NCBI RefSeq assembly: GCF_025751495.1
Contig: NZ_JAOWKZ010000005.1
Location: forward strand, 62,001-126,000
Source: Albidovulum litorale
GTDB lineage: Bacteria > Pseudomonadota > Alphaproteobacteria > Rhodobacterales > Rhodobacteraceae
Reading direction: 5' to 3'
DNA length: 64,000 bases
The first letter of the stretch is position 1. Each line of letters opens with the position of its first letter. The notes below the pieces were generated by a model. That model ran no database searches, had not been told where the DNA came from, and worked only from the letters and a program-made list of their open reading frames with translations. Position numbers and translations under genes: made by a program. Below are positions 4,880 through 64,000 of this stretch, one piece after another.

Positions 4880-4949
4880 GAGAAAATTCGACTACCATCA
4901 ACAGGGTCTGGACGCGCCAATTCTTGCAACGGATCTAGGGGAGACCGGA

Positions 4950-5897: not shown

Positions 5898-5939
5898 CCC
5901 GGCGGGGCATCCAGCGCCGTTCAATCGGCCAACCCTCGT

Positions 5940-5961
5940 AAGGTGGGTTTGAACCCACCTT
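5940..5961. terminator. Palindrome between convergent genes (bidirectional terminator)
   Basis: A 22-bp near-perfect palindrome with 10-bp arms AAGGTGGGTT/AACCCACCTT lies between the convergent SH3-protein and PfkB genes. It is followed on the plus side by TAATTTC. Closely related palindromes lie at 958-975, 13162-13186 and 52910-52935, so this is a repeat family used at gene ends. Confidence 0.65.
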
Positions 5962-5975
5962 AATTTCATGAGGTT

Positions 5976-6920: not shown

Positions 6921-6988
6921 GGGCCTACATCATTTCCCCGACCCTGACCGCAAATCCGCCACCCGGCAAGGGGCGGCGGCGTTCGGTT

Positions 6989-7912: not shown

Positions 7913-8015
7913 GGCAGCCTCTCTCTTCGATTCAAAAAAACCTAAGTCAACGCAGGCGTCGCCGGCATCAGATTCTTGTGTTGTAACGGTCGCGCGGCTG
8001 CGTTTGACGCGCTGG

Positions 8016-9347
8016 TCATCGTGACATGAGATATTCCGCAACAGCCTGATATGCGGGCAGCGATGTCGGATCGATAAAGCCGTTCTGCGCCTGCGGGAAC
8101 GAGGCGAACCGGACGAGAACCATATCGGCTGTCGGATCGACATAGATCGTCTGCCCGTGAACGCCGCGTGCTGCAAAGGCGCCGTGATCGTTGTGGAAGA
8201 CCCACCACTGGCTGGTGTAGCTGCCATTCGGGATCGTGGGGAAGCCCGCGAACTTTGCCGGGTCCCCGCCGGCGCGGATATTGTCCACGACATCGGCCGG
8301 GAAAAGGCGCTCGCCGTTGATCTCGCCCGCGTTCAGCATCAGCAGACCGAGCCGGCCGAGGTCGCGCAGGCCGGCCGAAATGCCGCCGCCAGCGAAGGGC
8401 ACGCCCTTGCCGTCGACCGTCTGGTAGGCGTCCTGTTCGGCACCCATGCGCCGCCAGAGCCGTTCAGAGGCAAGCTCGGTCACTGACTTGCCCGTGACGC
8501 GGCTGATCATCCAGCCGAGCATATCGGAGTTAATGGTCTTGTAGTGGAACTGATCGCCGTGATTGCCCTCGGGCTTCACCTGCTGAAGGTATTCCCAATA
8601 CCCGTCCGGGCCCTCATAACCTTCGGGCTTGGGCAACGGACTTGCCGCCCTGGAATAAAGCCAGATGTCGGCATTGGGGTCGGAGTAGTTTTCCGAATAC
8701 TGGACGCCGGTCGTCATATCCATGACTTCCCGTACGGTCGCGGTGGCAAAGGCGCTGTCGCCGATCTCGGGGATGATGTCGCGGACCAGTGCCGTATCGT
8801 CGAGAACACCCTCGGCCACAAGGATCTCTCCCAGAAGGCCGGTGACGGACTTGGTCATCGACATCGCCGCGTGCTTGCCGTCCTCGGCGAGGCAGCCGAA
8901 ATAGCGTTCGTAGACCACGCGGTCCTTGTGCAGAATGAGGATGCCGTCGGTGTAGTTGGCGTAGAGAGATTGCTCCCACGTCATCGGCGCGTCGCCATCG
9001 ATCGGGGTGAAGGTCAGTGCATCAATTTCACGCGCTGTCTCGGCGAACTCGGCGGGCGTCAGATAGTCGAGCGGTACCGGTGCGCCGAGGCCGCGGCTGA
9101 CTTCTTCGGTCGGCAGGAACTCGCGCAGGTGGCAGACCGACCAGCGCAACTTGGGAAAGCTGAAAAAGTTTGAGTCCGGCTGGGTGATGAGCTTGTCCGG
9201 CGGCGGTGGGAAACCTTCCATCCAGCCCATGACCCGCGGGTCCGAGTCCTGGGCCGAAAGCGGCGCGTTCTGGGCCGTGGCCATTGACGTCACGCTCATA
9301 CCGAAACTGACCGCGATCAGAGCTGCCTTAGAAATTGAAGACGACAT
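8016..9347 (-). CDS. Serine hydrolase, class C beta-lactamase/NylB-like
   Basis: A 443-residue protein with an N-terminal signal peptide (to about residue 26, MATAQ). It belongs to the beta-lactamase-related serine hydrolases: the nucleophile motif is SMTK (SxxK), the tyrosine motif is YSEN (YxN), and the C-terminal HGQTIYVDP takes the place of KTG. The arrangement YERYFGCLAEDGKHAAMSMTKS recalls 6-aminohexanoate-dimer hydrolase (NylB) and esterases of that group more than true beta-lactamases. It probably hydrolyses an amide or ester in the periplasm. Its first 20 nt overlap the end of the barrel gene, indicating translational coupling. Confidence 0.87.
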   Translation of the reverse strand: MSSSISKAALIAVSFGMSVTSMATAQNAPLSAQDSDPRVMGWMEGFPPPPDKLITQPDSNFFSFPKLRWSVCHLREFLPTEEVSRGLGAPVPLDYLTPAEFAETAREIDALTFTPIDGDAPMTWEQSLYANYTDGILILHKDRVVYERYFGCLAEDGKHAAMSMTKSVTGLLGEILVAEGVLDDTALVRDIIPEIGDSAFATATVREVMDMTTGVQYSENYSDPNADIWLYSRAASPLPKPEGYEGPDGYWEYLQQVKPEGNHGDQFHYKTINSDMLGWMISRVTGKSVTELASERLWRRMGAEQDAYQTVDGKGVPFAGGGISAGLRDLGRLGLLMLNAGEINGERLFPADVVDNIRAGGDPAKFAGFPTIPNGSYTSQWWVFHNDHGAFAARGVHGQTIYVDPTADMVLVRFASFPQAQNGFIDPTSLPAYQAVAEYLMSR

Positions 9348-48546: not shown

Positions 48547-50084
48547 TGGGAATCCAGGCAGCCGAGATCTCTGCGATCCTTAGGGAGCAGATCAAGAACT
48601 TCGGTCAGGAAGCGGAAGTGGCCGAGGTTGGCCGCGTTCTGTCGGTCGGCGACGGTATCGCCCGTGTGCACGGGCTGGACAACATCCAGGCCGGTGAGAT
48701 GGTCGAATTCCCCGGCGGTATCCGGGGTATGGCGCTGAACCTTGAGATCGACAACGTCGGTGTCGTTATCTTCGGTTCCGACCGCGACATCAAAGAAGGC
48801 GACACCGTCAAGCGCACCAAGGCCATCGTGGACGTGCCGGTTGGTGACGAGCTTCTGGGCCGCGTCGTTGACGCGCTTGGCAACCCGATCGACGGCAAGG
48901 GCCCGCTGAAGACCAAGAAGCGTTCGGTCGCGGATGTGAAGGCCCCCGGCATTATCCCGCGCAAATCGGTGCATGAGCCGATGGCGACCGGCCTCAAATC
49001 GGTTGACGCCATGATCCCGGTTGGTCGTGGCCAGCGTGAACTGATCATCGGCGACCGTCAGACCGGCAAGACCGCCATCGCGCTCGACACGATCCTCAAC
49101 CAGAAATCCTACAACGACGCTGCCGGCGACGACGAGAGCAAGAAGCTCTACTGCGTCTATGTCGCCATCGGCCAGAAGCGTTCGACGGTTGCCCAGCTTG
49201 TGAAGAAGCTGGAAGAGACCGGCGCCATCAACTACTCCATCGTCGTGGCCGCGACCGCGTCCGACCCGGCGCCGATGCAGTTCCTGGCACCCTATTCGGC
49301 GACCGCCATCGCGGAATACTTCCGTGACAATGGCCGCCACGCGCTGATCATCTACGATGACCTGTCGAAGCAGGCCGTCGCCTATCGCCAGATGTCGCTG
49401 CTGCTGCGCCGTCCGCCCGGGCGCGAAGCCTATCCGGGCGACGTTTTCTACCTGCACAGCCGCCTTCTGGAGCGTTCGGCGAAGCTGAACGAGGACAACG
49501 GTGCCGGTTCGTTGACGGCTCTGCCGATCATCGAAACGCAAGGTGGCGACGTGTCGGCCTTTATTCCGACCAACGTGATCTCGATCACCGACGGCCAGAT
49601 CTTCCTTGAAACGGAACTCTTCTATCAGGGTATCCGTCCGGCCGTGAACACCGGTCTGTCGGTTTCGCGCGTGGGCTCCTCGGCCCAGACCAACGCGATG
49701 AAATCGGTTGCGGGTTCGGTCAAGCTGGAGCTCGCTCAGTACCGCGAAATGGCGGCCTTTGCCCAGTTCGGTTCCGACCTCGACGCTGCGACCCAGCGCC
49801 TCTTGAACCGTGGTGCGCGTCTGACCGAGTTGATGAAGCAGCCGCAATACTCGCCGCTGACCAACGCGGAAATCGTCTGCGTCATCTTCGCGGGCATCAA
49901 GGGCTTCCTCGACAAGCTTTCGGTGAAGGATGTCGGCCGCTTCGAACGCGATCTGGTCAAGCATCTGCGCGCCAACCGCAAGGACATCCTCGACTGGATC
50001 ACCAAGGACGATCCGAAGATCAAGGGCGAGGCCGAAGACAAGCTTCGGGCGGCTATCGACGAATTCGCCAAGACCTTCGCGTAA
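48546..50084 (+). CDS. atpA: ATP synthase subunit alpha
   Basis: Non-catalytic nucleotide-binding subunit of F1. 512 residues, standard length. The N-terminal [19 protein letters not shown], the P-loop [14 protein letters not shown], and the signature region [17 protein letters not shown] are present. One-base overlap with atpH implies translational coupling. The codon choice is the strongly biased one of highly expressed genes, like the rest of the operon. Confidence 0.99.
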
Positions 50085-50105
50085 GCGGGGGGAGGGGACA
50101 GGGAT

Positions 50106-50981
50106 ATGCCCAGCCTTAAGGACCTGAAAAACAGGATCGAAAGCGTCAAGTCGACGCGGAAGATCACCAAGGCCATGCAGATGGTCGCGGCGGCCAAGCT
50201 CCGCCGCGCCCAGGAAGCTGCCGAATCCGCGCGTCCTTACGCCGAACGGATGAACGCGGTGATGTCGGGCCTTGCCGCCTCGGTCGGCGGATCGGACTCT
50301 GCGCCCCGGCTTTTGGCCGGGACGGGGGAAGACAAGACCCATCTTCTGGTGGTGATGACGGCAGAACGTGGCCTTTGCGGCGGCTTCAACTCTTCCATCG
50401 TGAAGCTTGCGCGGGCGAAGGCGAATGAGCTGATCAAAGCTGGCAAGACGGTGAAGATCCTGACCGTCGGCAAGAAGGGCCGTGAACAGCTGAAGCGTGA
50501 TCTCGGCAACCACTTCGTCGCCCATGTCGACCTCTCCGAGGTCAAGAAGCTTGGCTATGACAATGCGCAAGGAATTGCGCGCGATCTTATCCATCGTTTC
50601 GATGCGGGTGAGTTCGATGTTGCCACGATCTTCTTCAACCGCTTCGAGTCGGTGATCAGCCAGATCCCGACCGCGCAGCAGGTGATCCCGGCGAAGTTCG
50701 ACGCCGAGGAAGGCGAAGGTGCCTCGACGCTCTACGACTATGAGCCGTCCGAGGAAGAGATCCTTGCCGATCTTCTGCCGCGTGGCCTTGCCACCCAGGT
50801 CTTCACCGCGCTTCTGGAAAACGGGGCGTCGGAGCAGGGGGCGCGGATGTCCGCGATGGACAACGCGACGCGCAACGCGGGCGACATGATCGACAAGCTG
50901 ACGATCCAGTTCAACCGCTCGCGTCAGGCCGCGATCACCAACGAACTTATCGAAATCATTTCGGGCGCCGAGGCGCTCTAA
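50106..50981 (+). CDS. atpG: ATP synthase subunit gamma
   Basis: Central rotor shaft of F1. 291 residues. The N-terminal [20 protein letters not shown] with [16 protein letters not shown] and the C-terminal [20 protein letters not shown] with [19 protein letters not shown] are the family landmarks that pack into the alpha/beta ring. AGGGGACAGGGAT precedes the ATG. It lies 21 nt after atpA and 18 nt before atpD. Confidence 0.99.
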
Positions 50982-52442
<1,461 letters not shown>

Positions 52443-52451
52443 GGGGGCGAG

Positions 52452-52850
52452 ATGGCCGATACGATGCAGTTTGACCTTGTGTCCCCTGAGCGGCGGCTTG
52501 CCTCCGTTCAGGCCCGCGAGGTCCGCATTCCGGGCGCCGATGGCGACCTGACGGCGATGCCGGACCATTCGCCGCTGATCACCACGCTGCGTCCAGGCAT
52601 CCTCACCGTCGTCTCTGCCGAGGGCACGAACGACTACGCCGTGACCGGCGGCTTTGCCGAGATTTCGGCGGCGGGTGCCTCGGTTCTGGCCGAACGCGCG
52701 ATGCCGAAGGGCGAAGTGACGGCGGCCGATATGGACGGGCTGATCGCCGATGCAACTTCGGAAGCGGGGGAAGCTCCGGCCGAGGGCAAGGACGCCGCCA
52801 ACAAGCTGGTGGCCGACCTTCAGGCGTTGAAAGCGGCACTCGGGCTCTGA
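52452..52850 (+). CDS. atpC: ATP synthase subunit epsilon
   Basis: Small rotor subunit that couples gamma to the c-ring and can inhibit ATP hydrolysis. 132 residues. [20 protein letters not shown] and [19 protein letters not shown] are typical of the N-terminal beta-sandwich. The C-terminal helical part is shortened and Ala/Glu-rich ([18 protein letters not shown]). Last gene of the operon, followed by a terminator. Confidence 0.97.
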
Positions 52851-52870
52851 GCCGAAAATATTTGGAAATG

Positions 52871-52904
52871 GATCGGGCGGCCCTTGGGCCGCCCGATCTG
52901 TTTT
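52871..52904 (+). terminator. Intrinsic terminator of the atp operon
   Basis: GATCGGGCGGCCC and GGGCCGCCCGATC form a perfect 13-bp stem with a tiny loop, followed by TGTTTT. It starts 20 nt after the atpC stop. Confidence 0.9.
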
Positions 52905-52909
52905 GGAGT

Positions 52910-52935
52910 GTAAGGTGGGTTTAAACTCACCTTAC
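52910..52935. repeat. Palindrome of the gene-end repeat family
   Basis: Arms GTAAGGTGGGTTT and AAACTCACCTTAC pair over 13 bp with one G-T wobble. It sits between the atp terminator and the end of the convergent cysteine-rich protein gene, whose terminator it probably is. Same family as 5940-5961. Confidence 0.65.
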
Positions 52936-52945
52936 ACCACGGCTC

Positions 52946-54286
52946 TTACGCTTCGCCGTCTTCTTCCTTGTCCTCGCATTCACCCACCGGGCAGCAGCGG
53001 TATTCCTGGCTTTTCTCGAGAAGCTGGATCCGCTTGGCCAGAAGCTGGTTTTCCAGATCCTGACGCACGAGGTCGAGTTCGATCGACTTCCGGCGGCTGT
53101 CTTCGCAGGTGTTGCACTTGTCGAGGCAGCCCTTGACCACGATGGCCTGGGTCGGCAGGCAGGTTTCGCGGGTGAAGCTGAGCTCGGCCGCGAATTTAGC
53201 CGAGACATTGCCGCCGACACGGTCGATGACACCCGCCTTGACCAGTTCGGCATCGACGGTCGCCAGCGCCTTGTCACGCTCTGCCTGCGACATCGGCGGA
53301 ACTCGGACGGACAGGGCTGCACTGCGGGTAGCAAGCGCGAGGTTGAGGTTGCCCGCGCTGGAAAAGCCGCCCCCGCTGATTAGATTGGCCTTGTGCGCCG
53401 CGGCACTTGTCCTCCCTGCGGTTTCAATCTCGAGACGGTTCGCCTGAGTCGCCCGGATCCCGTCGGGGATGACGGCGACGCTGGATGCGGGCCGGATCGG
53501 ACGCGCATCGACGCGGGCATCGCCTGCCCGGTCGATGACGCGGCGCAGGACGGCCTTGATGGTGAATTTCAGGGTCTGCTTCTTCACCAGCTGATAGGCG
53601 AGATAGGTCACCGCGTGGCACTGGTTGCGGTTCTCGAAAACACGCGTCGAGGCTTCATAGGCGCTTTCGCTTTCGCCCTCGGCGTGGCTCCTGCTTTGCA
53701 CCTCGCCCACCGCAATGGAGTTTGCCGCGCGTGTCGCCTGCACCGACCGGTCATGTGAGGATGACGCATGCTGCGACAGTTCCCGCGCGAAATCGGCGCT
53801 GGAATTGGCATTAAAGTCGCCATCGACACTGGCGCTGCCGCCGCCTGCGAATCCGACCGTCCAGTAATCCGCGCTGCCATTCACCTCGAAGTCCGAATGC
53901 GACTGGCTGTTCGCCTCGGCCTGATCGCGGATCGTGAGATCGGACATGTAGCGGTCCATCGAGGACATGTAGAAGGTCTCTTCCGAGGCCTGCTCGTGCC
54001 GGTAGTTCACCTCTGACTCGCTGTCATAGCTGAATCGCGAATTCCGGGATGCGGTGTAGAGCCGGACTTTTTCACCTGGCAGGAGAGTGGTCGAATAGAC
54101 CACATCTCCAAGGGCCAGCGGGCCGGGGCAGCGCTCCAACTCCGCGACATAGGTCAATTCAACCTGTGCGTTTGCGAGCGGAACCCTGAGGCGATAGGCG
54201 AATTGAAGCCGTTCGCAGCACGGGTCCTTGGAAAGTTCCGGACAACAGGGGATGTCATTCATCGAGATAAGATTGCCGTCGGCCAT
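52946..54286 (-). CDS. Cysteine-rich protein of unknown function
   Basis: A 446-residue protein I cannot assign. No signal peptide. An N-terminal Cys cluster (IPCCPELSKDPCCERLQFAY) is followed by a beta-like region (VELTYVAELERCPG, DVVYSTTLLPGEKVRLYTAS). A long Ser/Ala/Glu/His-rich middle follows (EETFYMSSMDRYMSDLTIRD; a Gly-rich VGFAGGGSASVDGD), then a second structured part. The C-terminus has CLPTQ, GCLDKCNTCEDS, a coiled coil and a terminal YRCCPVGECED. ATG at 54286 has AGGAGG 8 nt upstream. The many paired Cys suggest metal binding or cross-linking. Divergent from the H-type lectin gene. Confidence 0.75.
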   Translation of the reverse strand: MADGNLISMNDIPCCPELSKDPCCERLQFAYRLRVPLANAQVELTYVAELERCPGPLALGDVVYSTTLLPGEKVRLYTASRNSRFSYDSESEVNYRHEQASEETFYMSSMDRYMSDLTIRDQAEANSQSHSDFEVNGSADYWTVGFAGGGSASVDGDFNANSSADFARELSQHASSSHDRSVQATRAANSIAVGEVQSRSHAEGESESAYEASTRVFENRNQCHAVTYLAYQLVKKQTLKFTIKAVLRRVIDRAGDARVDARPIRPASSVAVIPDGIRATQANRLEIETAGRTSAAAHKANLISGGGFSSAGNLNLALATRSAALSVRVPPMSQAERDKALATVDAELVKAGVIDRVGGNVSAKFAAELSFTRETCLPTQAIVVKGCLDKCNTCEDSRRKSIELDLVRQDLENQLLAKRIQLLEKSQEYRCCPVGECEDKEEDGEA

Positions 54287-54538
54287 CTTGTTTCCTCCTG
54301 AAATTATGTCGTTTTCAAATTCCCCCATGGTCGAAATAATAAATGCGACCACGCTAGGGTTCGGGGAAATACAACCATAAGCCGACTCGCCCGGCGCGCG
54401 AAATGCTGGAATACCGGTACAGCGGAAATCGGCCGACAGAGATTTATGGCGGAGGCGAATCAATTGCGTACATCTGAATTTATCTTTGCCTGCCACGAGT
54501 TGCAGGATTAGATGGGGAAAAGCGGTTTAGGAAACGGT

Positions 54539-54889
54539 ATGCGTCGTTTGCGGAGTCAAAGGGTTGGCGTTGAGCAGGGCTCAGTCGTTTTGTTTTCTGA
54601 TTTCGAGGACGGCGGGATCATGTGGACCGGAAGCGGACCACGGGAGCTTCGCCACGCGGTTGCGTTTTCCGAAGCCTTTAGGCGCGCGCCCGTCGTTCAA
54701 GTCGGAATCTCCATGTGGGACATGGATCAAAAGACCAATATCAGGGCCGACATCTCGTCCGACAAGGTGCGGCCCGAGGGGTTCGAAATCGTCTTTCGCA
54801 CTTGGAGCGATACACGTATCGCCCGCATCCGCGCCGACTGGCTGGCAATCGGCGAGGTCAGCGATGACGACGACTGGGAGGTCGTCTGA
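54539..54889 (+). CDS. H-type lectin domain protein
   Basis: A 116-residue protein that is essentially one H-type lectin domain, a small beta-sandwich first known from snail agglutinins that binds N-acetylgalactosamine. Landmarks are QGSVVLFSDFEDGGIMWTG, RELRHAVAFSEAFRRAPVVQ and the C-terminal EIVFRTWSDTRIARIRADWLAIGE. No signal peptide. I prefer the ATG at 54539; one at 54512 would add nine residues. It is divergent from the cysteine-rich protein gene and convergent with the helicase gene 9 bp away. Ligand unknown. Confidence 0.85.
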   Translation: MRRLRSQRVGVEQGSVVLFSDFEDGGIMWTGSGPRELRHAVAFSEAFRRAPVVQVGISMWDMDQKTNIRADISSDKVRPEGFEIVFRTWSDTRIARIRADWLAIGEVSDDDDWEVV

Positions 54890-54898
54890 CCCGACGCT

Positions 54899-56836
54899 TC
54901 AGTTCTTGCCGCGTTTCGGCGGCGCCATCCCGCCTTTGCGATGCGGGGCCTTTCCCGGCTTGGCGGGCTTGTTCGGCGCGCGGTCCTTTCGGGGGCTACC
55001 CGTGGAAGCGCCGGTTGCCGATTTACCGCCCTTGCGGTGGGGTTTCTTTCCAGCAGGTTTCGGCGCTTTGGGCGCAGGCGCCTCGGTCAGCAGGCCATGT
55101 TCGGCCGCGACTGGCGCGGGTATGGGACGGTCACGGTCGCGCTTCCTGTCCGGTGTTTTCCAGGCACTGTCGCCGGCGTCCCGGTTGGCCGCGTGTTTCG
55201 GTCCTTTCTTCCGGGGCGGTTCGGATTTCGGCCGCTCAGCGGAGCCGCCGAAGGGCGGCGCGTCGAGCGCGCGCAGCACCGCGCCGCCTTCAAGTCGTCC
55301 CTCAGGTCCAATTGCCGCCAGCATGGCCGGAGCACGCGCGGCGAGGACCTCTACGAAGGTTTCGGTTTCCTGCACCCGGATCGCACCGACGTCTTCGCGA
55401 CTGATATTGCCCGCCCGGCACAGCATCGGCAGAAGCCAGCGCGGTTCGGCCTTGTCGGCCCGTCCGAGCGAGATCGAGAACCAGCGGCTAGGTCCGAAAG
55501 CCGGGCGCGGCCCTTCTGCTGCGCCCGGGGCTGCGAGTTCCTCGGGGGCAGAATGACGCCCCTGCCACGCGCGGACAAAGGCCGCCGCGATCCGCTCGGC
55601 CCCGTGCAGGTCGAGAAGACGCCGGGCAAACGCGCCGTCGCGTTCCCCAATGTCTTCGCTCCACACCGGATCGGCCAGCAGCCGTTCCTCGTCGCGGGCG
55701 CGCACGGCATCGGCCGAGGGCGCATCGACCCAAGCCGCAGTGACCTTGGCGAAACGCAGGATGTTCTCGGCCTTCTTGCGTGCGTTTTTCGGTACGATCA
55801 GCGCGCTGACGCCCTTGCGGCCCGCACGACCGGTCCGGCCCGAGCGGTGCAGAAGCGTTTCGCCGTTCGAGGGCAGTTCGGCATGGATCACCAGTTCGAG
55901 GTTCGGCAGGTCGATCCCGCGCGCGGCAACATCGGTTGCCACGCAGACCCGCGCCCGACCGTCGCGCATCGCCTGCAGCGCGTGGCTGCGCTCGGACTGG
56001 CTGAGCTCGCCTGACAGCGCCACGACCGCGAAGGCGCGGTTCGACAGCCGTGTGGTCAGCCGGTTCACGGTCGCGCGGGTATTGGCGAAGATGATCGCGT
56101 TCTGTGCCTCGTAATAACGCAGCACGTTGACGATCGCGTGTTCGACATCCTGAGTTGCAACCGGCATGGCGCGATAGTCGATATCGGCATGCTGGCTGCG
56201 TTCACCCGCCGTCGTCACCCGGACCGCGTCTTTCTGATAGGTCGCGGCCAAAGCGGCGATGGATTTCGGCACGGTGGCCGAAAACATCAACGTCCGCCGG
56301 TCTTCCGGCGCGGATCCAAGGATGAACTCCAGATCCTCGCGGAAGCCGAGGTCGAGCATCTCGTCCGCCTCGTCCAGAACAACGGCCCGGATCAGGCTGA
56401 GGTCGAGTGAGCCGCGCTGGATATGATCGCGAAGCCGCCCGGGCGTGCCGACGACGATATGGGCACCCCTGTCCAGCGCCCGGCGTTCGTCGCGCATGTC
56501 CATCCCGCCGACGCAGGAGGCAAGCGTGGCCCCGGTCATCCCGTAGAGCCAGCCAAGCTCGTGCCGGACCTGCAGGGCCAGTTCCCGTGTCGGTGCCACG
56601 ATCAGTCCCAGCGGTGCACCGGCGGGGCCGAACCTGTCGGCGTCGGCCAGAATCGTCGGAGCGATCGCCAGACCGAAGCCCACGGTCTTGCCCGACCCGG
56701 TCTGGGATGACACCAGCAGGTCGGCCGCGGTGTATTCGGGCTGTGTCACGGTTTCCTGCACCGGGGTCAGCTGGTCGTAACCGCGATTGGCAAGTGCCTC
56801 GGCAAGAGGCCGGATCAGGGGGGAGGTTTCGGACAT
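54899..56836 (-). CDS. DEAD-box ATP-dependent RNA helicase
   Basis: A 645-residue RNA helicase. Motifs in order: Q-motif region GYDQLTPVQ, Walker A SSQTGSGKT, PTRELALQV, TPGRLRDH, DEAD in VLDEADEMLDLGF, SAT in LMFSATVPKS, and helicase-C motifs ARGIDLPNLELVIHAELP and HRSGRTGRAGRKG. Residues about 470-545 form a DbpA/CsdA-like RNA-binding domain (ISREDVGAIRVQETETFVEV). The C-terminal ~90 residues are basic and Pro/Lys-rich. It probably acts in ribosome assembly or cold adaptation. Start at 56836 (MSETSPL); the upstream open frame lacks homology. Confidence 0.95.
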   Translation of the reverse strand: MSETSPLIRPLAEALANRGYDQLTPVQETVTQPEYTAADLLVSSQTGSGKTVGFGLAIAPTILADADRFGPAGAPLGLIVAPTRELALQVRHELGWLYGMTGATLASCVGGMDMRDERRALDRGAHIVVGTPGRLRDHIQRGSLDLSLIRAVVLDEADEMLDLGFREDLEFILGSAPEDRRTLMFSATVPKSIAALAATYQKDAVRVTTAGERSQHADIDYRAMPVATQDVEHAIVNVLRYYEAQNAIIFANTRATVNRLTTRLSNRAFAVVALSGELSQSERSHALQAMRDGRARVCVATDVAARGIDLPNLELVIHAELPSNGETLLHRSGRTGRAGRKGVSALIVPKNARKKAENILRFAKVTAAWVDAPSADAVRARDEERLLADPVWSEDIGERDGAFARRLLDLHGAERIAAAFVRAWQGRHSAPEELAAPGAAEGPRPAFGPSRWFSISLGRADKAEPRWLLPMLCRAGNISREDVGAIRVQETETFVEVLAARAPAMLAAIGPEGRLEGGAVLRALDAPPFGGSAERPKSEPPRKKGPKHAANRDAGDSAWKTPDRKRDRDRPIPAPVAAEHGLLTEAPAPKAPKPAGKKPHRKGGKSATGASTGSPRKDRAPNKPAKPGKAPHRKGGMAPPKRGKN

Positions 56837-57252
56837 GGGTCGTCTTTCAGGGGCGCGATCGCCCGTCGGGAAGGGCCCCGGCGTATCGGGGCAAGCCCGC
56901 AGGGATGTGCCCCGCGCGCGGTGAATGACGGCACCTAAGCCGAAACGGTGCGGATGTATAGGGCTAATGCGAACGGGCCGCGTCGGACCCGAGCGCGAAG
57001 AGCCGAAATATCTAAGCCAAGAATTGGCGTCAGGGCTTCCAATACCATGGATTGCAACAACTGGGCTGACTGGCAACCTATGGAGGTGTTTTTGTGAGAT
57101 TGCTGACAGAAAGCACCGTATCTGGTAGCATCGTGCCTTAATACGCGGGGCAGAAGCGCCAATTGAATTGGCCGATGTAACCAGTTCCGACCTCCGGGCA
57201 GAGTAATCGCGACCGATCTCGGGCGCGAATAAATCAGGAGGGGGACACATCC
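56837..57252. other. Intergenic region upstream of helicase and DUF1326 cassette
   Basis: 416 bp between two divergent genes with no convincing ORF. A plus-strand open frame at 56925-57128 and a long minus-strand frame running from 57600 through the DUF1326 gene both read as non-coding. The part from about 57000 is less GC-rich than the surroundings. It must hold both promoters; one candidate is listed at 57103-57131. Confidence 0.5.
57103..57131 (+). promoter_or_regulatory. Putative promoter of the DUF1326 cassette
   Basis: CTGACA (57103-57108) and TAGCAT (57126-57131) are separated by 17 bp, about 120 nt before the first DUF1326 gene. Each matches the consensus at four of six positions or better. 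No operator-like palindrome was seen nearby. Confidence 0.35.
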
Positions 57253-57891
57253 ATGACCACTTGGGAAATCAAGGGCGAAGAACTCGCTAATTGTAACTGC
57301 AACTTTGGTTGTCCGTGCCAATTCGGCGTGTTGCCAACCCATGGCACCTGCGAAGCCGCAGTCGTCTACAAGATCGACAAGGGTCATTATGGAAACACCT
57401 CGCTGGATGGCCTGACTGCCGCAGCCGTCTACAAATGGCCGGGTGCGATTCATGAAGGAAACGGGCATGTGCAGCTGATCATTGATCCCAAGGCGGATGC
57501 TGATCAGCGCGCTGCACTCGAAGCCATCATGACGGGCGAAGATACCGTCGAAATGGCGACGATGTGGTTCGTCTTCGGGGCGATGAGCCCGCACAAGCAT
57601 GAGACGATCTATGCACCGGTTTCACTCGATCTGAACATCGAGGACAGAACCGGGAAAGGCATCGCAAAGGGGGTCTTTGATATCGCCGCCGAACCGATCC
57701 CGAATATTGTGACGGGCGAGCCGCATCGTATCGGCATCGCTCTGCCCCACGGGTTCGAATTCGGGTTTGCCGAAATGGCGAAAGGGCAAACAAAGACGAC
57801 CGGCGGTGATCTGCAACTCACGAATAACTCAGGCACCCACGCACATATGGCCAGCCTGCACCTGACCGGCGAAGGCCGTGTCGCGGCGTGA
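57253..57891 (+). CDS. DUF1326 domain protein, first copy
   Basis: A 212-residue soluble protein of unknown function. The N-terminus carries five ordered residues NCNCNFGCPCQF (four Cys, about residues 14-25), which looks like a metal- or thiol-active site. The core has YKWPGAIHEGNGHVQLIID, DQRAALEAIMTG and MSPHKHETIYAPVSLD. The C-terminal part is beta-rich with HAHMASLHL. AGGAGGGGG precedes the ATG. It overlaps the DUF2182 gene by GTGA, and a paralogue follows that gene, so the three form one operon. DUF1326 and DUF2182 are commonly neighbours. Confidence 0.88.
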   Translation: MTTWEIKGEELANCNCNFGCPCQFGVLPTHGTCEAAVVYKIDKGHYGNTSLDGLTAAAVYKWPGAIHEGNGHVQLIIDPKADADQRAALEAIMTGEDTVEMATMWFVFGAMSPHKHETIYAPVSLDLNIEDRTGKGIAKGVFDIAAEPIPNIVTGEPHRIGIALPHGFEFGFAEMAKGQTKTTGGDLQLTNNSGTHAHMASLHLTGEGRVAA

Positions 57892-58724
57892 ACTTGGCAG
57901 AGAGAGCTGTGGCTGGCGCGCCCGGGCCGGTTGAACGCGCTCTGGCGCGCGACAAGTGGATTGTGTTCGGCGCGGTAACGCTGGTCGTTCTTCTGGCAGG
58001 TCTCTACACAGTTGCGGGCGTCGGCATGTCAATGTCGGCGCTTGACATGACACGCATGGCCCGCCCTGTCGGTGAACCGATGGCGATGGGCGAGGCCATG
58101 GAATGGACCTTGGGATACGCGCTTCTGATCTTCCTGATGTGGTGGGTCATGATGATCGCGATGATGACCTCGAGCGCCGCCCCGGTCGTGCTTCTGTTCG
58201 CGGCACTGAAGCGGCAGGGCTCGCAAAAGGCCAAAGCCACAAGTCTCAGCATGGTCTTTCTGGCGGGCTATCTGCTTGCGTGGATGGGCTTCAGCGCGGT
58301 CGCAATGCTGCTGCAATGGCTGACGGAAAGCCTCGCAATCACCAATGGCCCGATGATGACGATTGGGTCAAAGCCGGTCGCGGGCGTCGTGCTGCTCATG
58401 GCGGGCCTTTACCAGTTCTCTAACCTGAAAGTCGCCTGTTTGCGGCATTGTCGGTCGCCCGCCCAGTTCCTGACCATGTACAATCGTAAAGGCTACTCTG
58501 GGGCACTCATGATGGGCCTGCATCACGGCAGCTATTGCCTGGGATGCTGTTGGGCGCTGATGGCGCTTTTGTTCGTTGGGGGGATCATGAACCTCTACTG
58601 GATCGTTGGGCTGGCGATCTACGTATTGCTTGAAAAAATCGTCCCGTACCCCCGCGTGTTCTCGCGGGTGGCCGGCGGTCTCTTGATCGCTGCGGGCTCA
58701 GGGGTCGTTCTTTCAGCACTTTGA
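57888..58724 (+). CDS. DUF2182 integral membrane protein
   Basis: A 278-residue membrane protein with about six or seven hydrophobic segments (for example IVFGAVTLVVLLAGLYTVAG near the start, LLIFLMWWVMMIAMMTSSAA, then VVLLMAGLYQFS). The second segment is very Met-rich. Candidate metal/thiol residues occur in SNLKVACLRHCRSPAQF and in HHGSYCLGCCWALMALLF. The family has been called a predicted metal-binding membrane protein; no reaction is known. It begins with GTG overlapping the stop of the first DUF1326 gene by 4 nt and is followed 48 nt later by the second. Confidence 0.88.
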   Translation: MNLAERAVAGAPGPVERALARDKWIVFGAVTLVVLLAGLYTVAGVGMSMSALDMTRMARPVGEPMAMGEAMEWTLGYALLIFLMWWVMMIAMMTSSAAPVVLLFAALKRQGSQKAKATSLSMVFLAGYLLAWMGFSAVAMLLQWLTESLAITNGPMMTIGSKPVAGVVLLMAGLYQFSNLKVACLRHCRSPAQFLTMYNRKGYSGALMMGLHHGSYCLGCCWALMALLFVGGIMNLYWIVGLAIYVLLEKIVPYPRVFSRVAGGLLIAAGSGVVLSAL

Positions 58725-58772
58725 TATCGAAAGGGAGCGGACGCTCCGCCAAGACCGAGGAAAGGAAGCGAT

Positions 58773-59408
58773 ATGGCAAGGATAGACTGGTACATCGAAG
58801 GGCCCGCTTATGGGAACTGCAACTGCGGATACGCCTGCCCCTGTCAGTTCGAGGAAGACCCGACCCAGGGCAATTGCCGCGGGTTCGAGGTGATGGAAAT
58901 CACCGATGGCCATTTCGGTAAGGTGGATCTGACCGGGGTGAAAGTAGCCATTCTCTATGCCTGGCCCGGACCAATCTACAAGGGCGAGGGGGAGATGCAG
59001 CTAATCATCGATGAAAGCGCCTCTGTCGATCAGCGCAAAGCACTGGAAACCGTGCTGACAGGCGGCGAAACGGATGAAGAGGCGACGCACTGGTGGGTGT
59101 TCCGCGCCATGAGCCCTACGCTGCATGACACGATCTACGCGCCCATTGGCATGGACATAGATATTGAGGCGCGCACGGCAAAGGTCAGCATCGGTAACGT
59201 CCTGTCTTCCGAAGGCCGACCGATCAAACCGCCGCACGGCGACGGCGCGCACCGGGTTCGGATCGACATGCCGAACGGTATCGAGTTTTCGATCGCCGAG
59301 ATCGGAAGTGCGTCAACGACCGCAAGCGCAGCCATCAAGCTCGATCTGAAAGACAGTTACGGCCAATGGCATTTCATGAAGCATGGACCGAGCGGCGTCG
59401 TGCATTGA
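58773..59408 (+). CDS. DUF1326 domain protein, second copy
   Basis: A 211-residue paralogue of the protein at 57253. It keeps the Cys motif as NCNCGYACPCQF (about residues 15-26), with a further Cys in GNCRGFEV, and the core YAWPGPIYKGEGEMQLIID, DQRKALETVLTGG and MSPTLHDTIYAPIGMDID. The middle and C-terminus differ clearly, so the pair may have split roles rather than being a recent duplication. AGGAAAGGAAG precedes the ATG. It ends the cassette, convergent with prs. Confidence 0.88.
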   Translation: MARIDWYIEGPAYGNCNCGYACPCQFEEDPTQGNCRGFEVMEITDGHFGKVDLTGVKVAILYAWPGPIYKGEGEMQLIIDESASVDQRKALETVLTGGETDEEATHWWVFRAMSPTLHDTIYAPIGMDIDIEARTAKVSIGNVLSSEGRPIKPPHGDGAHRVRIDMPNGIEFSIAEIGSASTTASAAIKLDLKDSYGQWHFMKHGPSGVVH

Positions 59409-59444
59409 ACCCGTGCATCGGCAAAGCCTTGACGCGTTAAGGCT

Positions 59445-60464
59445 TCAGCCGCGCGAATACATGCCTTCGTAGATCGGCCCCAGAGTCTCGGCGTCGAAGA
59501 GCGACGAAACCGAGGTACCCGACCAGATGTTCATGATCGCCTGCGCGAACATCGGTGCCGTGGGAACGATGCGGATGTTTTTCGCGGCCTTCACGGCGGC
59601 GGTCGGTTCGATGGAATCGGTGATGACGAGGCTTTTCATCACCGACTTCGTGACACGCTCCACGGCCGGACCGGAAAGGACGCCGTGGGTGATGTAGGAA
59701 TGAACCTCCTTGGCGCCGCCCTGCATCAGCACTTCTGCTGCCTTGCAGAGGGTTCCGGCGGTATCGCAGATGTCGTCGACGATGATGCAGGTCTGGCCCG
59801 ACACGTCGCCGATCACCGTCATCTCGGCCACTTCGCCCGCCTTCACCCGGCGCTTGTCGACGATGGCGAGGCCGCAGCCGATGCGCTGCGCCAATTCGCG
59901 GGCACGGGCCACGCCGCCCACGTCGGGCGAGACCACGGTCACTTCGTTCAGCCGGCCCCTGAAGTGATGCTCGATGTCGAGAGCAAAGATCGGCGAGGCA
60001 TAGAGGTTGTCCACAGGAATGTCGAAGAAACCCTGAATTTGGGCGGCATGCAGGTCCATGGTCAGGACCCGGCCGACGCCCGCCTCGGTCAAGAGGTTCG
60101 CCACCAGTTTGGCCGAGATCGGCGTGCGCGCCTTGGCGCGACGGTCCTGGCGGGCATAGCCGAAATAGGGGATCACGGCAGTGATCCGGTCCGCTGACGA
60201 CCGGCGGAGCGCGTCGGTCATGATCAAGAGTTCCATCAGATTGTCGTTCGCCGGGTTCGAGGTCGACTGGATGATGTACATGTCCTCGCCGCGGACATTT
60301 TCGAAGACCTCGACGAAGATCTCCTGATCGTTGAAGCGTTCGACCCGCGCGTCCACCAGCCCGACCGACATGCCCCGGTGCATCGACATCCGCCGGGCGA
60401 TGGAATTGGCAAGCGGGCGGTTCGAATTGCCGGAAATGAGCTTCGGCTCGGTCATGGAGGGCAT
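59445..60464 (-). CDS. prs: Ribose-phosphate pyrophosphokinase
   Basis: Makes phosphoribosyl pyrophosphate from ribose 5-phosphate and ATP, for purine, pyrimidine, His, Trp and NAD synthesis. 339 residues. Landmarks are [38 protein letters not shown], the metal-binding [20 protein letters not shown], and the PRPP loop [12 protein letters not shown]. The ATG at 60464 has AAGGA 8 nt upstream; the frame stays open upstream without homology. Monocistronic. Confidence 0.97.
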
Positions 60465-60576
60465 GGCGGGTCCTTGTCGTTCGGGGCCGCAAAACCGGGC
60501 CAGATGACGGATTCGTGACGTTGCCACCCGCTTATCATCGGGCTAGCGTCCGGGCAAACCCGAAGGAGTGCCGGAA

Positions 60577-61188
60577 ATGCCACAGATCGACTACTTCCTG
60601 TCCACAATCTCTCCGTTTACCTACCTCGCCGGTACGCGGCTGGAAGAAATCGCGGCGAAGCATGGTGCGACGGTGACCTACAAGCCGGTCGATATCGGCG
60701 GGCTCTTCGGGCGCACGGGCGGCACGGCGCTGAAGGACCGGCCCGAGGGTCGCCGCGAATACCGGTTGCAGGAAATGACCCGGCAGGCAGCCAAGGCAGG
60801 GATGAAGATTAACCTTCAGCCGATGTTCTGGCCCACCAATGCCGCGCCCTCGGCTTACGCGATCATCGCGGCGCAGGCGGCCAAGGCAAAGGGCGCGGCA
60901 GGCGATCTGGGCGCATTCGTCCATTCGATCCTGCGCGCCTGCTGGGCCGACGAACGCGACATCGCCTCGGACGAGGTGATCCGTGACCTTCTTTCCAAGG
61001 CCGGGTTCGAGGCGGATCTGGCGGACAAGGGCCTTCTCTTGGGAGCCGAGACCTATGCCAACAATCTTGAGGAAGCCGTGAACCGGGGCGTCTTCGGTTC
61101 GCCCTTCTATCTCGTCGACAGTGGCCAGCGGTTCTGGGGGCAGGACCGTCTCGACGATCTTGACCTCCATCTTGCGGGCAAACTCTGA
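60577..61188 (+). CDS. 2-hydroxychromene-2-carboxylate isomerase-like protein
   Basis: A 203-residue thioredoxin-fold protein of the DsbA/GST-kappa branch. It opens with DYFLSTISPFTYLAGTRLEE, where the Ser of SPFTY corresponds to the catalytic Ser of GST-kappa and HCCA isomerase, and ends with the family motif GVFGSPFYLVDSGQRFWGQDRLDDL. In naphthalene breakdown the enzyme isomerises 2-hydroxychromene-2-carboxylate using glutathione; here no aromatic pathway adjoins, so a general glutathione-dependent role is as likely. The ATG at 60577 has AAGGAG 8 nt upstream. The stop overlaps the next start (TGATG). Confidence 0.88.
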   Translation: MPQIDYFLSTISPFTYLAGTRLEEIAAKHGATVTYKPVDIGGLFGRTGGTALKDRPEGRREYRLQEMTRQAAKAGMKINLQPMFWPTNAAPSAYAIIAAQAAKAKGAAGDLGAFVHSILRACWADERDIASDEVIRDLLSKAGFEADLADKGLLLGAETYANNLEEAVNRGVFGSPFYLVDSGQRFWGQDRLDDLDLHLAGKL

Positions 61189-61997
61189 TGCCACAGGAAG
61201 ACCGGGCCGGCTTTCCGACCCATTGGCAGACATTCGGCACCGGGCCGCGCCCTGCGCTGGCGGTGCATTGCTCGCTGGCCAGTTCCAACGCATGGGCAGG
61301 GGTGGCCGAACGCCTCGCCGACCGGATCACCCTGACCGCCTTCGACCTGCCGGGCCATGGACGGTCGGCGGACTGGACGGGGGCGGGCGATTTTCTGACC
61401 CGTGCCACCCAGATCGCGGCAAGTTTCGTCGAGGAACCGCTGGACCTGATCGGCCATTCCTTCGGCGCGGTCGTAGCGTTGCGCCTTGCCATTGCCGCGC
61501 CTGATGCGTTCCGGACGCTGACGCTGATCGAGCCGGTCCTTTTCGCCGCGACAAAGGGCGAACCGGTATGGGAGGAGCATCTGCAAAACGACGCCTTGTT
61601 CGAACAGATGATGGAAGTCGGCGACCGCGAGGCGGCAGCACGGGCCTTTACCGCGATGTGGGGCACGGGCGTGGACTGGCAGGCAATGGACGACCGGAAC
61701 CGCCGCGAACTGACCGACCGTATCCATCTGATCGGGGCGGGGCGGCCCGCGCTGTTCGAGGACAGCGGCGGTATCCTCGCGCCCGATGCGCTCGAAAGCC
61801 TCGACATGCCGGTACTTCTGATCCGGGGTGAGGCCTCGCCACCGATCATCGAGCGGATCGCCGAGAACATCGCGGCCCGCCTGCCCGATGTCGGCATCGC
61901 CACAGTACCCGGAGCCGCGCATATGGTGCCAATCACCCATCCCGCTCAGACAGCAGGCCTGATCGGGGTCAATCTGGATCGGTCACAGTGGCCGTGA
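61188..61997 (+). CDS. Alpha/beta hydrolase with altered C-terminus
   Basis: A 269-residue alpha/beta-hydrolase-fold protein. The nucleophile elbow is LIGHSFGAVVAL, with the oxyanion region VHCSLASSNAW and FDLPGHGRS; the acid is probably in LLIRGEASPP, and the catalytic His lies in VPGAAHMVPITHP. The last residues (NLDRSQWP) are encoded by the first copy of a 27-bp tandem repeat that runs past the stop, so the natural C-terminus may have been replaced. Translationally coupled to the preceding isomerase gene. Substrate unknown. Confidence 0.86.
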   Translation: MPQEDRAGFPTHWQTFGTGPRPALAVHCSLASSNAWAGVAERLADRITLTAFDLPGHGRSADWTGAGDFLTRATQIAASFVEEPLDLIGHSFGAVVALRLAIAAPDAFRTLTLIEPVLFAATKGEPVWEEHLQNDALFEQMMEVGDREAAARAFTAMWGTGVDWQAMDDRNRRELTDRIHLIGAGRPALFEDSGGILAPDALESLDMPVLLIRGEASPPIIERIAENIAARLPDVGIATVPGAAHMVPITHPAQTAGLIGVNLDRSQWP

Positions 61998-62027
61998 ATT
62001 CTGGATCGGTCACAGTTGCCGTGAATT
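61974..62027. repeat. 27-bp tandem direct repeat across the hydrolase stop codon
   Basis: Two head-to-tail copies (61974-62000 and 62001-62027) of a 27-bp unit beginning CTGGATCGGTCACAG differ at one base (G/T). The stop of the alpha/beta hydrolase lies in copy 1. The repeat sits exactly where rplS would be expected after trmD. Repeated blocks of this length are found at the ends of IS21-type elements, so it could be an insertion remnant; no transposase gene is present. Confidence 0.75.
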
Positions 62028-62052
62028 CTGAACGCGCAGTCGCGCTAGAAAA

Positions 62053-62865
62053 CTAAGCTTCCGACTTCGGAGAACGGGCGGACCACAGATCGGGCCGCCT
62101 TTCCATCGTCAGTCTCTCCGCCTCAGCCCGTCGCCATTTCTCGATCTCGCCGTGGTGGCCGGACATGAGGACAGGCGGGATCTCTCGCCCCTCCCACTTA
62201 GCGGGACGTGTGTATTGCGGATGCTCCAACAGGCCGTGGGAATGGCTTTCCTCTTCGGTGGAGGCGGCATTGCCGAGCACTCCGGGCAGGAGCCGTACCA
62301 CGGCATCCAGCATCGCCTGCGCGGCGATCTCTCCGCCCGTCAGGACGAAGTCGCCAAGGCTGACCTCTTCGACCGCGTAGTGGTCCAGCACCCGCTGGTC
62401 GACGCCTTCGAACCGGCCCGCGAGCATCGTGATGCCTTCTGATGTCGCCCAGCCGCGGGCCATGGCCTGATTGAAGGGTTTGCCGCGCGGCGACAAGTAG
62501 ACGACCGGCCATTTCGCCCGGTCGGCGGGCGTACCGATGGCGGCCTGATCGAAGGCCGCGCCCACCACATCGGCGCGCAGCACCATCCCGGCCCCGCCGC
62601 CTGCGGGCGTGTCGTCGACATTGCGGTGTTTGCCGATGCCAAAGGGGCGGAGCGGGATCGTCTCAAGATGCCAGAGCCCCTCCGCCAGGGCCTTTCCGGT
62701 CAGGCTGAGGCCGAGCGTGCCGGGAAAAGCCTCGGGGAAGAGCGTAATGATGCGGGCGGTCCATGCGCCTTTCAGACGCGGGGCCTCAGCCATCAGGTCG
62801 CGGGGTTTCAGCGAGGCCGAGACGGACAGACGCCCGTGCGACTTCGGTTTCTCGTCGTCCGTCAC
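62053..62865 (-). CDS. trmD: tRNA (guanine-N1)-methyltransferase
   Basis: Methylates G37 of tRNAs that read CNN codons, preventing frameshifts. 270 residues. The SPOUT-type knot has [53 protein letters not shown] and the C-terminal [19 protein letters not shown]. An N-terminal extension of about 35 residues ([18 protein letters not shown]) precedes the catalytic domain, as in related bacteria. Starts with GTG overlapping the rimM stop (GTGA). rplS, normally next, is absent. Confidence 0.97.
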
Positions 62866-63368
62866 TCCGTTTCCTCCGGCGGGTCGGCGATGATCCGGCC
62901 GGCGGTGAGGTCGACCGTCGGTACGACCGTGCGGGTGAAGGGCAGAAGGAGCGCGGTCTTACGACCGGGCGCAAAGATTTCAAGGATATCGCCCGCGCCA
63001 TGATTGTGGACCGCGCGGACGGTGCCGATTTTGGTTCCACAGGTATCGAAGACCTCAAGCCCGATAAGGTCGGTATGATAGAACTCGTCATCCGGCAGGC
63101 TGGGCAGCATCGACCGGTCGGCGAAAAGCTCGACACCGCGAAGGGCATCGGCCTCTTCCTTGGTGGCAATGCCGGAAAGCCGCGCGGCAAAGCCGTTATT
63201 GATGCTGCGGGTGATGCGGAGGGTAAAGCTGCGTTTGCCGTCCTCGGTCCAGAGGGGGGCATAGGCGGCAATCGCCTCTGGCTGGGCGCAGTAGCTTTTC
63301 AGCCGCACCTCGCCCCGAACACCGAAGGCGCCGCCAATGGCGCCGACGCAGACGCGGTCAGTTGCCAT
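62862..63368 (-). CDS. rimM: 16S rRNA processing protein RimM
   Basis: Assembly factor for the 30S head that binds S19. 168 residues. The N-terminal RimM domain starts [21 protein letters not shown], and the PRC-barrel domain holds [19 protein letters not shown] and [23 protein letters not shown]. Its start lies within the last codons of the 50-aa ORF upstream (11-nt overlap), and its stop overlaps trmD, so the operon is tightly coupled. Confidence 0.96.
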
Positions 63369-63510
63369 CCGTCACCTCCGGGCAGTCGGCCGCCACCGGG
63401 GCGGCGGCCGTTTTCGGGACCAGAATGCGATCGGTCTTCATGCCCAGCCAGAACGACCCCGCGCAAAGCGTGAGAGTGATGATCCGGCGCAGGAAGAAGC
63501 CGATCAGCAT
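63358..63510 (-). CDS. Small membrane protein between rpsP and rimM (50 aa)
   Basis: A 50-codon ORF with ATG at 63510 and TGA at 63358. The product starts [20 protein letters not shown], a single hydrophobic segment with a positive RR, followed by a short polar tail with one Cys ([10 protein letters not shown]). It lies 14 nt after rpsP and overlaps rimM by 11 nt in another frame, so it is placed like a translated gene of the operon. Function unknown; topology suggests a one-pass inner-membrane protein. Confidence 0.65.
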
Positions 63511-63524
63511 GTCTTTTCAGCGTC

Positions 63525-63926
63525 TTATTCGGACGCGGCTTCGTCGGCCGCAGCCTCTTCGGCGGGGGCGGCAGCGGCCTCAGAAGCCTTCGCCGATTTT
63601 GCGGCCTTTTCCTCAGCGCGCTTCTTGGCCTTGTCGCCAGGCTCGGCTTTTTTCATGTTGGCGCGGGTGGCCTTTTCTTTCACGCCGGCGGCTTCCAGCA
63701 TGCGGGCGATGCGGTCGGTCGGCTGGGCGCCTTTGGACAGCCAGTGCTGCACGCGCTCCATGTCCATCTTTACGCGGTCTTCGGAGTCCTTCGGCAGCAG
63801 CGGGTTGTAGGTGCCGAGTTTTTCGATGAAGCGGCCGTCGCGCGGCATGCGGCTGTCGGCGGCGACGATCGAATAGAACGGACGCTTCTTGGAACCCCCA
63901 CGGGCGAGGCGGATTTTCATAGCCAT
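63525..63926 (-). CDS. rpsP: 30S ribosomal protein S16
   Basis: Small-subunit assembly protein. The conserved domain is [20 protein letters not shown], then [20 protein letters not shown] and [19 protein letters not shown]. 133 residues in all: a Lys/Ala/Glu-rich C-terminal tail of about 45 residues extends the usual ~80-residue core, as in other alphaproteobacteria. AGGAGAAATGAC precedes the ATG at 63926. First gene of rpsP-small ORF-rimM-trmD. Confidence 0.97.
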
Positions 63927-63978
63927 GTCATTTCTCCTATCTTGGCTTTGAAACAGGCAGATGCCTGCTATTCCTTGG

Positions 63979-64000
63979 TTATTTTTGCAGTTTCTCGTGA
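63979..64000 (-). CDS. Possible 3' end of an upstream CDS
   Basis: The last 22 bases can be read on the minus strand as ...HEKLQK followed by TAA at 63979, upstream of rpsP. Too short to identify; ffh or a chorismate-mutase gene often precedes rpsP in this group. A small inverted repeat CAGGCA-ga-TGCCTG (63954-63967) lies between it and rpsP. Confidence 0.3.

Follow-up and report, generated by a model that had tools for sequence, protein, structure and literature searches.

A PpoB2–DUF1326 gene pair of Albidovulum litorale as a candidate copper hand-over module, with a related pair beside dmdA

Passages of PMC2855505 report that the Marinomonas protein PpoB2 (COG5486) passes copper to the tyrosinase PpoB1, and a passage of PMC8523701 also labels ppoB2 a copper chaperone. 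When a literature collection was searched for DUF1326, DUF2182, COG5588, COG5486, PF07040 and PF09948, only PMC2855505 matched, for COG5486. Here we analyse a locus of Albidovulum litorale in which a membrane protein of the PpoB2 family (B) is encoded between two proteins of the DUF1326 family (A and C); the window is the whole stretch of 64,000 nucleotides that contains it. Two other designs of copper protein are useful for comparison. Ctr-type importers have three membrane helices, with a Met-rich segment outside and an M-x3-M pattern within a helix, and the Cys motif of the CopY type reads C-x-C-x4-C-x-C.

We propose, with slightly less than even confidence, that A and B form a self-contained module in which PpoB2 hands Cu(I) to a cytosolic DUF1326 protein for delivery to a copper enzyme of the cytosol. 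B, the membrane half, belongs to an already described copper-chaperone family. Its DUF1326-coupled form, the cysteine coupling and the placement of a related pair beside dmdA, the gene for dimethylsulfoniopropionate (DMSP) demethylase, are the new part.

The DUF1326–PpoB2 pair and an accessory gene

Among 299 genomes of the phylum, 31 carried DUF1326 and 37 PpoB2 (35 with scores over the cut-off), and all 31 DUF1326 genomes had both. The same was true of 274 genomes from the class of G102 (222 genera), where DUF1326 occurred in 26, PpoB2 in 28 and both in 26 of 26. The two samples overlap in a few genomes (e.g. G102), and the co-occurrence (Fisher 1.7e-36 and 2.2e-34, respectively) was calculated with the relatedness of the genomes left in. 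The genes are also neighbours: 43 of 47 DUF1326 loci in the phylum sample and 25 of 32 in the class sample lie within 1.5 kb of PpoB2. DUF1326 precedes PpoB2 in 24 and 18 of these, respectively, and follows it in 19 and 1; the two diverge in 0 and 6. Because this adjacency is kept across several gene orders, the linkage is likely functional. The pair was also found on plasmids of actinobacteria and haloarchaea.

Relatives of the A–B arrangement were collected by a search with B, of which the best 80 of 140 matches, mostly from Rhodobacteraceae, were used. Every one of the 80 loci has A directly upstream of B. C directly follows B in only three (L007, L008 and L009), and in L051 it lies 2.2 kb downstream of B; at the remaining 76 no C was present within the stretch examined, which includes at least 700 bases after B at 78 of the 80 loci. 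C is accessory and stands outside the conserved unit. When 108 DUF1326 proteins were placed in a tree, C (43% identical to A across 197 aa) grouped not with A but with two proteins from other genomes, L248 (G501) and L255 (G430), each beside its own PpoB2. C is therefore not a tandem copy of A and seems to have been added later, from a different DUF1326 lineage. The initial annotation of this DNA had treated the three genes as one cassette and suggested that its two DUF1326 proteins form a heteromer. The A–B part of that cassette held in all 80 loci; the inclusion of C did not, and we rejected an A–C heteromer as a general rule because C belongs to a separate lineage and is missing from most A–B loci.

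Some loci have further neighbours. A short-chain dehydrogenase gene lies directly upstream of DUF1326–PpoB2 at L203:7555-8943 and L281:7790-9099, in two genomes of different families, and the genes before it differ. On Cupriavidus necator pHG1 (L146:8721-8948), a gene for a GDCCVxC (seleno)protein follows the DUF1326–DUF2182 pair. A sulfur-type island is next to the pair on a Microvirga plasmid.

The genes and motifs of the window are listed in Table 1. All three open reading frames were found where the initial annotation had put them, on the + strand, and Pfam assigns A and C to DUF1326 and B to PF09948 (203.6 bits against a gathering score of 28.7 bits, which places B in the family). As also described there, the genes overlap or are closely spaced, by 4 bases for A and B and with a gap of 48 bases between B and C. 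The view that neither family has an assigned role was wrong for DUF2182, since PF09948 is now named PpoB2, "Copper chaperone", in Pfam and is no longer a DUF, and its copper role is published (passages of PMC2855505). DUF1326 has no assigned function in the records examined.

Searches with the single proteins added little: no NCBIfam match for A, B or C, no match of A or B to the PDB by sequence (profile matches had E of 0.33 or worse, chance-like) and none of B to phage records. No signal peptide is apparent in A, in which the DUF1326 domain begins at residue 4. Both flanking genes, for a DEAD-box helicase upstream and phosphoribosyl pyrophosphate (PRPP) synthetase downstream, are on the opposite strand, so the cassette stands alone. 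The upstream region first noted may hold a promoter of its own; the lone sigma-70-like match upstream is no better than chance (1 found versus 1.4 expected). A shared upstream operator was not convincing (the best dyad occurred in 5 of the 49 stretches versus 2 in the shuffle), and no RNA families were found within window positions 50000-64000. Tyrosinase is absent among the scanned neighbours in the window, where the neighbour of B is DUF1326. Past the PRPP synthetase gene, ∼1.2 kb 3' of C, positions 60568-61188 (+) encode a DSBA-like thioredoxin-domain protein.

Table 1. Genes and sequence features of the A–B–C locus (positions in the window)
Feature	Position	Strand	Basis
Gene A, DUF1326 protein, 212 aa	57253..57891	+	PF07040, E 2.8e-47; 161.6 bits vs gathering 25 bits
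A: C14-x-C16-x3-C20-x-C22 cluster (within N-C-N-C-x3-C-P-C-Q-F)	57292..57318	+	each Cys in 171-172/174 aligned rows
A: fifth conserved Cys, C33	57349..57351	+	173/174 rows
Gene B, PpoB2 family (formerly DUF2182) polytopic membrane protein, 278 aa, GTG start	57888..58724	+	PF09948, E 3.5e-60
B: Met-rich loop, residues 45-72, predicted outside	58020..58103	+	K+R count per loop
B: M88-x3-M92-M93, membrane helix	58149..58166	+	M88, M93 in 167/169 rows; M92 in 159/169
B: C184-x3-C188 (ACLRHC), loop predicted cytosolic	58437..58451	+	5 K+R in loop; C184 in 164/169 rows, C188 in 167/169
B: C217-x2-C220-C221 (CLGCC of CLGCCW), membrane helix	58536..58550	+	C217, C221 in 169/169 rows; C220 in 164/169
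Gene C, second DUF1326 protein, 211 aa	58773..59408	+	PF07040, E 3.2e-49; 167.9 bits
C: C16-x-C18-x3-C22-x-C24 cluster	58818..58844	+	sequence
C: fifth Cys, C35	58875..58877	+	sequence; family conservation

Conserved residues and solitary PpoB2s

The motifs first noted in these proteins (N-C-N-C-x3-C-P-C-Q-F in A and C; a Met-rich segment, ACLRHC and CLGCCW in B) are all present. The four Cys that had been singled out in DUF1326 proved near-invariant, but their number had to be corrected: a fifth (C33 in A, C35 in C) is equally conserved. The rows of the 174-row alignment that lack the conserved Cys are two clipped copies (L069 and L252). The initial annotation had named two outcomes that would speak against it, cysteines that vary freely among homologues and families that co-occur no more than by chance. 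Since the Cys are near-invariant and the families co-occur far beyond chance, neither was found.

A single-chain AlphaFold2 model of A (pLDDT 95.2) places the five Cys from where strand 4-14 ends to where strand 33-46 begins; by this placement they should be gathered at one end of the hairpin. The only fold matches of this model at E < 0.001 were two acetoacetate decarboxylases, 3c8w (Foldseek E 2.7e-5, TMq 0.48) and 3bgt (E 4.8e-5, TMq 0.44). We rejected kinship with these enzymes, as the local hhalign probability was 0.1, equal to that of the reversed control, and the high score of a global alignment came from one aligned column and was an artefact. Acetoacetate decarboxylases use a catalytic Lys; there was no invariant Lys among 52 DUF1326 rows.

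The corresponding model of B had a pLDDT of 89.0, with 6-7 membrane helices predicted. Compared with PDB folds it gave nothing significant, the best being weak matches to the major facilitator superfamily (E 0.21), and neither model gave a thioredoxin-like fold match. Counts of Lys and Arg (K+R) by loop predict that the Met-rich loop faces outwards and that the C184-x3-C188 loop lies on the inner side, where DUF1326 is expected. The Met-rich stretch before the second transmembrane helix of PpoB2 has a mean of 6.2 Met per 31 residues (51 rows). W85, M88, M93 and W132 are each present in 167 of 169 PpoB2 rows, and the other two rows have gaps there.

The inner cysteines of PpoB2 differ when DUF1326 is missing. 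All three of C184, C188 and C220 are found in 158 of 159 PpoB2 rows versus 3 of 10 rows without DUF1326 (Fisher 1.4e-9). Four of the 159 are partial or have no adjacent DUF1326 (L246, L260, L261 and L263), and all four keep these Cys. Two of the ten are doubtful: L158 adjoins an annotated DUF1326 fragment, and the genome of L206 has DUF1326 elsewhere. Without these two, the set is complete in 1 of 8. Counted by adjacency to DUF1326, C184 is present in 131 of 132 rows versus 5 of 9, and C220 in 132 of 132 versus 5 of 9. C217 and C221 are kept in all PpoB2 rows, lone ones included. The annotated DUF1326 beside PpoB2 on the Leptolyngbya plasmid (L158:7450-7827, 125 aa) may be a remnant, because the open reading frame found there has no Cys motif.

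Lone PpoB2s have copper-related neighbours. One adjoins a tyrosinase gene in each of three genomes (L223, L226 and L273), the arrangement reported for Marinomonas. Others, on plasmids, are found beside CsoR, a copper P-type ATPase and a multicopper oxidase, or in a CueR/P-type ATPase cluster, and one lies two genes downstream of SBP56. DUF7868, a domain of PpoB2-linked tyrosinases, occurs in 6 of the 299 genomes, 4 of them over the cut-off, and all four genomes confidently assigned PpoB2 without DUF1326 (G111, G154, G196 and G213) are among the six. Against this link, the match in G213 is under the cut-off, those in G154 and G213 do not share a contig with PpoB2, and in G016 DUF7868 occurs without PpoB2. 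A Caballeronia tyrosinase 2.3 kb from a pair was not counted; it has a signal-like start by eye and runs in the opposite direction. Most simply, PpoB2 can be read as a common copper device whose cytosolic partners are exchanged and whose inner Cys are tuned to DUF1326.

A related pair beside dmdA

A second cassette lies on another contig of the same genome (L006, G000:C8:580000-595000, 4853-9262), with PpoB2 upstream of DUF1326. The gene order is PpoB2–DUF1326–DmdA–AcuI-like, preceded by a divergent GntR/FCD regulator. DmdA scored 577.4 bits (NF009133 cut-off 410). The AcuI-like protein is over the cut-off of the YhdH/AcuI subfamily and under that of the AcuI equivalog (417 versus 440). Passages of PMC3338564 place acuI immediately 3' of dmdA in 24 of 26 DmdA-bearing Roseobacters. 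In family f1, dmdA and an acuI-like gene follow the cassette in 9 of 9 cases with the order PpoB2–DUF1326. Nine of the 15 f1 genomes have DUF1326 and PpoB2; DmdA is over the cut-off in all nine, in G205 and in 0 of the other 5 (Fisher 0.002).

A fresh test used 61 genomes of the family. DmdA was over the cut-off in 26, of which the 24 not examined before were taken. In 18 of the 24, PpoB2–DUF1326 directly precedes either dmdA itself or an acyl-CoA synthetase gene placed before dmdA; G594, G579, G566, G558, G609 and G589 have dmdA without the upstream pair. The gap between DUF1326 and dmdA is up to ∼0.7 kb in many loci, and co-transcription is not implied. At the PpoB2–DUF1326 cassette of G008 an acyl-CoA synthetase gene takes the place of dmdA, and eight cassettes of this order in f10, all from one genus, have no dmdA neighbour. 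In another class, DUF1326 adjoins a DmdA-like gene in G511 and G399 (scores of 356 and 374; cut-off 410). In G399, a small genome, DUF1326 is beside both the DmdA-like gene and an acyl-CoA synthetase gene (L289:3295-3912, L290:14878-15612), and PpoB2 is ∼29 kb away.

The record of a Marinovum plasmid (CP010864) already labels both genes of the pair as involved in DMSP breakdown. A pair upstream of dmdA is not mentioned in passages of PMC4770636, PMC7181598, PMC4334477 and PMC3338564, which is no proof that it is unpublished. SBP56 is also present in the cluster on the Marinovum plasmid pMaD9 and in G599. MtoX-type SBP56 oxidises methanethiol in a copper-dependent manner, and the MtoX operon, with SCO1/senC-mauG, has a copper protein encoded beside a copper enzyme of the DMSP/methanethiol pathway (passages of PMC5739008). 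Directly downstream of cytosolic-type SBP56 genes we observed a hydrophobic protein of ∼220 aa (L200:8819-9478, L145:14540-15196, L230:8977-9651, L232:8892-9563). It may act as a partner of SBP56; the copy in L200 matched nothing in Pfam or NCBIfam.

Proposed copper hand-over, its alternatives and known systems

In the proposed module, B would collect Cu(I) with its Met-rich outer loop. The ion would cross the membrane via M88/M92/M93 and C217/C220/C221, reach the cytosolic C184-x3-C188 of B and then pass to A, which would hold it in the five-Cys site and deliver it to a cytosolic copper enzyme, the client that we infer for the module. C would be an optional second acceptor. The partners of PpoB2 would be interchangeable, a tyrosinase in some genomes and DUF1326 in most. 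The paralogous pair linked to dmdA would serve the genes for DMSP demethylation, possibly by providing a cytosolic thiol oxidase of the SBP56 type with its copper; its position hints at a copper supply of their own. Copper as the cargo is supported by what is published on PpoB2 and by the copper-related genes near lone PpoB2s. Inward delivery is supported by the neighbouring tyrosinases and SBP56s, in which no obvious signal peptide was seen by eye. Of the metal binding or thiol chemistry proposed in the initial annotation, metal is favoured over redox by the PpoB2 copper role, the membrane Met and Cys residues and the genes around lone PpoB2s.

A broader claim is that PpoB2–DUF1326 is a widespread and dedicated system for Cu(I) import and chaperoning with swappable cytosolic partners, one branch of which is an unrecognised, near-standard neighbour of dmdA in marine Rhodobacteraceae. 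We regard this as doubtful. If true, copper supply would be built into the assimilation of DMSP sulfur. No function is given for DUF1326 in the records examined, yet a membrane copper-chaperone family is present in every DUF1326 genome of both samples.

Several points weigh against copper hand-over. Copper binding by DUF1326 is a prediction, and topology and inward direction come from positive-inside counts; the absence of signal peptides in the neighbouring tyrosinases and SBP56s was judged by eye, with uncertain start codons. No copper enzyme adjoins the cassette in the window. The A–B type has no recurrent neighbour: only genus-level synteny recurs in the 80 loci, and among 142 of 229 listed neighbour proteins (32 loci, other genomes) no Pfam family had more than three members. 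In the surveys, eleven DUF1326 loci lack an adjacent PpoB2, and three plasmid regions (L151, L152 and L159; two from Sinorhizobium, one from Streptomyces clavuligerus) have DUF1326 without PpoB2 within ∼8 kb, as searched in the regions themselves. The Cys difference of lone PpoB2s may in part be a subfamily trait, because these proteins are more divergent overall. As to SBP56, those of L145 (pMaD9) and L200 (this genome) fail the MtoX model, with 103.3 and 115.4 bits against the NF052453 cut-off of 650. The association of SBP56 with DUF1326 in f1 is 6 of 9 versus 2 of 6 (p 0.31, not significant) with all matches over the Pfam cut-off; with strong matches only it is p 0.028, the line between strong and weak having been drawn after seeing the table. 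DUF1326 is carried by 14 of 19 genomes with a strong SBP56 match and by 15 of 23 over the cut-off. With SBP56s that fail the MtoX model and a link that is weak when relatedness is taken into account, the client of the dmdA-linked pair remains a guess.

Four other explanations were weighed. Copper could flow outwards, with DUF1326 taking up excess cytosolic Cu(I) and PpoB2 exporting it. The lone PpoB2s near CueR, CsoR, P-type ATPases and a multicopper oxidase fit such export equally well. Efflux is nevertheless unlikely: passages of PMC2855505 describe Marinomonas PpoB2 as needed for copper transfer to tyrosinase, which is a supply role, and the neighbour count for the A–B type revealed no copper-resistance genes. 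We consider it quite unlikely that the system handles thiols or sulfane sulfur, with the DUF1326 Cys binding methanethiol or persulfide sulfur that PpoB2 moves or senses. The published PpoB2 role is copper, the membrane Met pattern suits Cu(I) better than sulfur, and neither the A–B type nor the eight f10 cassettes have a DmdA-like neighbour. Linkage to dmdA, whose pathway yields methanethiol, does fit sulfur handling, as do the DUF1326 gene of G399, which stands beside a DmdA-like gene with PpoB2 far off, and the island on the Microvirga plasmid.

DUF1326 might instead be an enzyme of copper or another metal that PpoB2 only metallates, as with tyrosinase. It is often directly upstream of PpoB2 (24/43 and 18/25 adjacent loci), the place that tyrosinase takes in L223, L226 and L273, and its model resembles the 3c8w fold. 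Without an invariant Lys or profile kinship to that enzyme, and with a clustered Cys run that would resemble a binding site, this is distinctly improbable. Most improbable of all is a redox relay in which the Cys of both proteins carry electrons or disulfides across the membrane. Cys motifs are present on both proteins and a DsbB gene is beside one lone PpoB2, but no thioredoxin-like fold was matched by either model and the invariant residues of PpoB2 include Met too.

Among known systems, the model of DUF1326 matches acetoacetate decarboxylase at the level of the fold and differs from it in lacking profile similarity and the invariant Lys and in having five conserved Cys instead. The four clustered Cys are spaced nearly as in the CopY-type motif; DUF1326 has C-x-C-x3-C-x-C plus a fifth Cys, in another fold. 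B resembles Ctr importers in a Met-rich segment that is predicted to lie outside and in the M-x3-M pattern of a predicted membrane helix, but with 6-7 predicted helices rather than three and with membrane and cytosolic Cys clusters. The dmdA-linked pair would share with the MtoX/SBP56 operon a dedicated copper protein next to a copper enzyme in the DMSP/methanethiol pathway; here the copper protein would be PpoB2–DUF1326, and the SBP56s score below the MtoX model. PpoB2 of Marinomonas mediterranea, compared here at the level of the family, belongs to the same Pfam family as B. B differs in that its partner is DUF1326 rather than tyrosinase and in its full C184/C188/C220 set.

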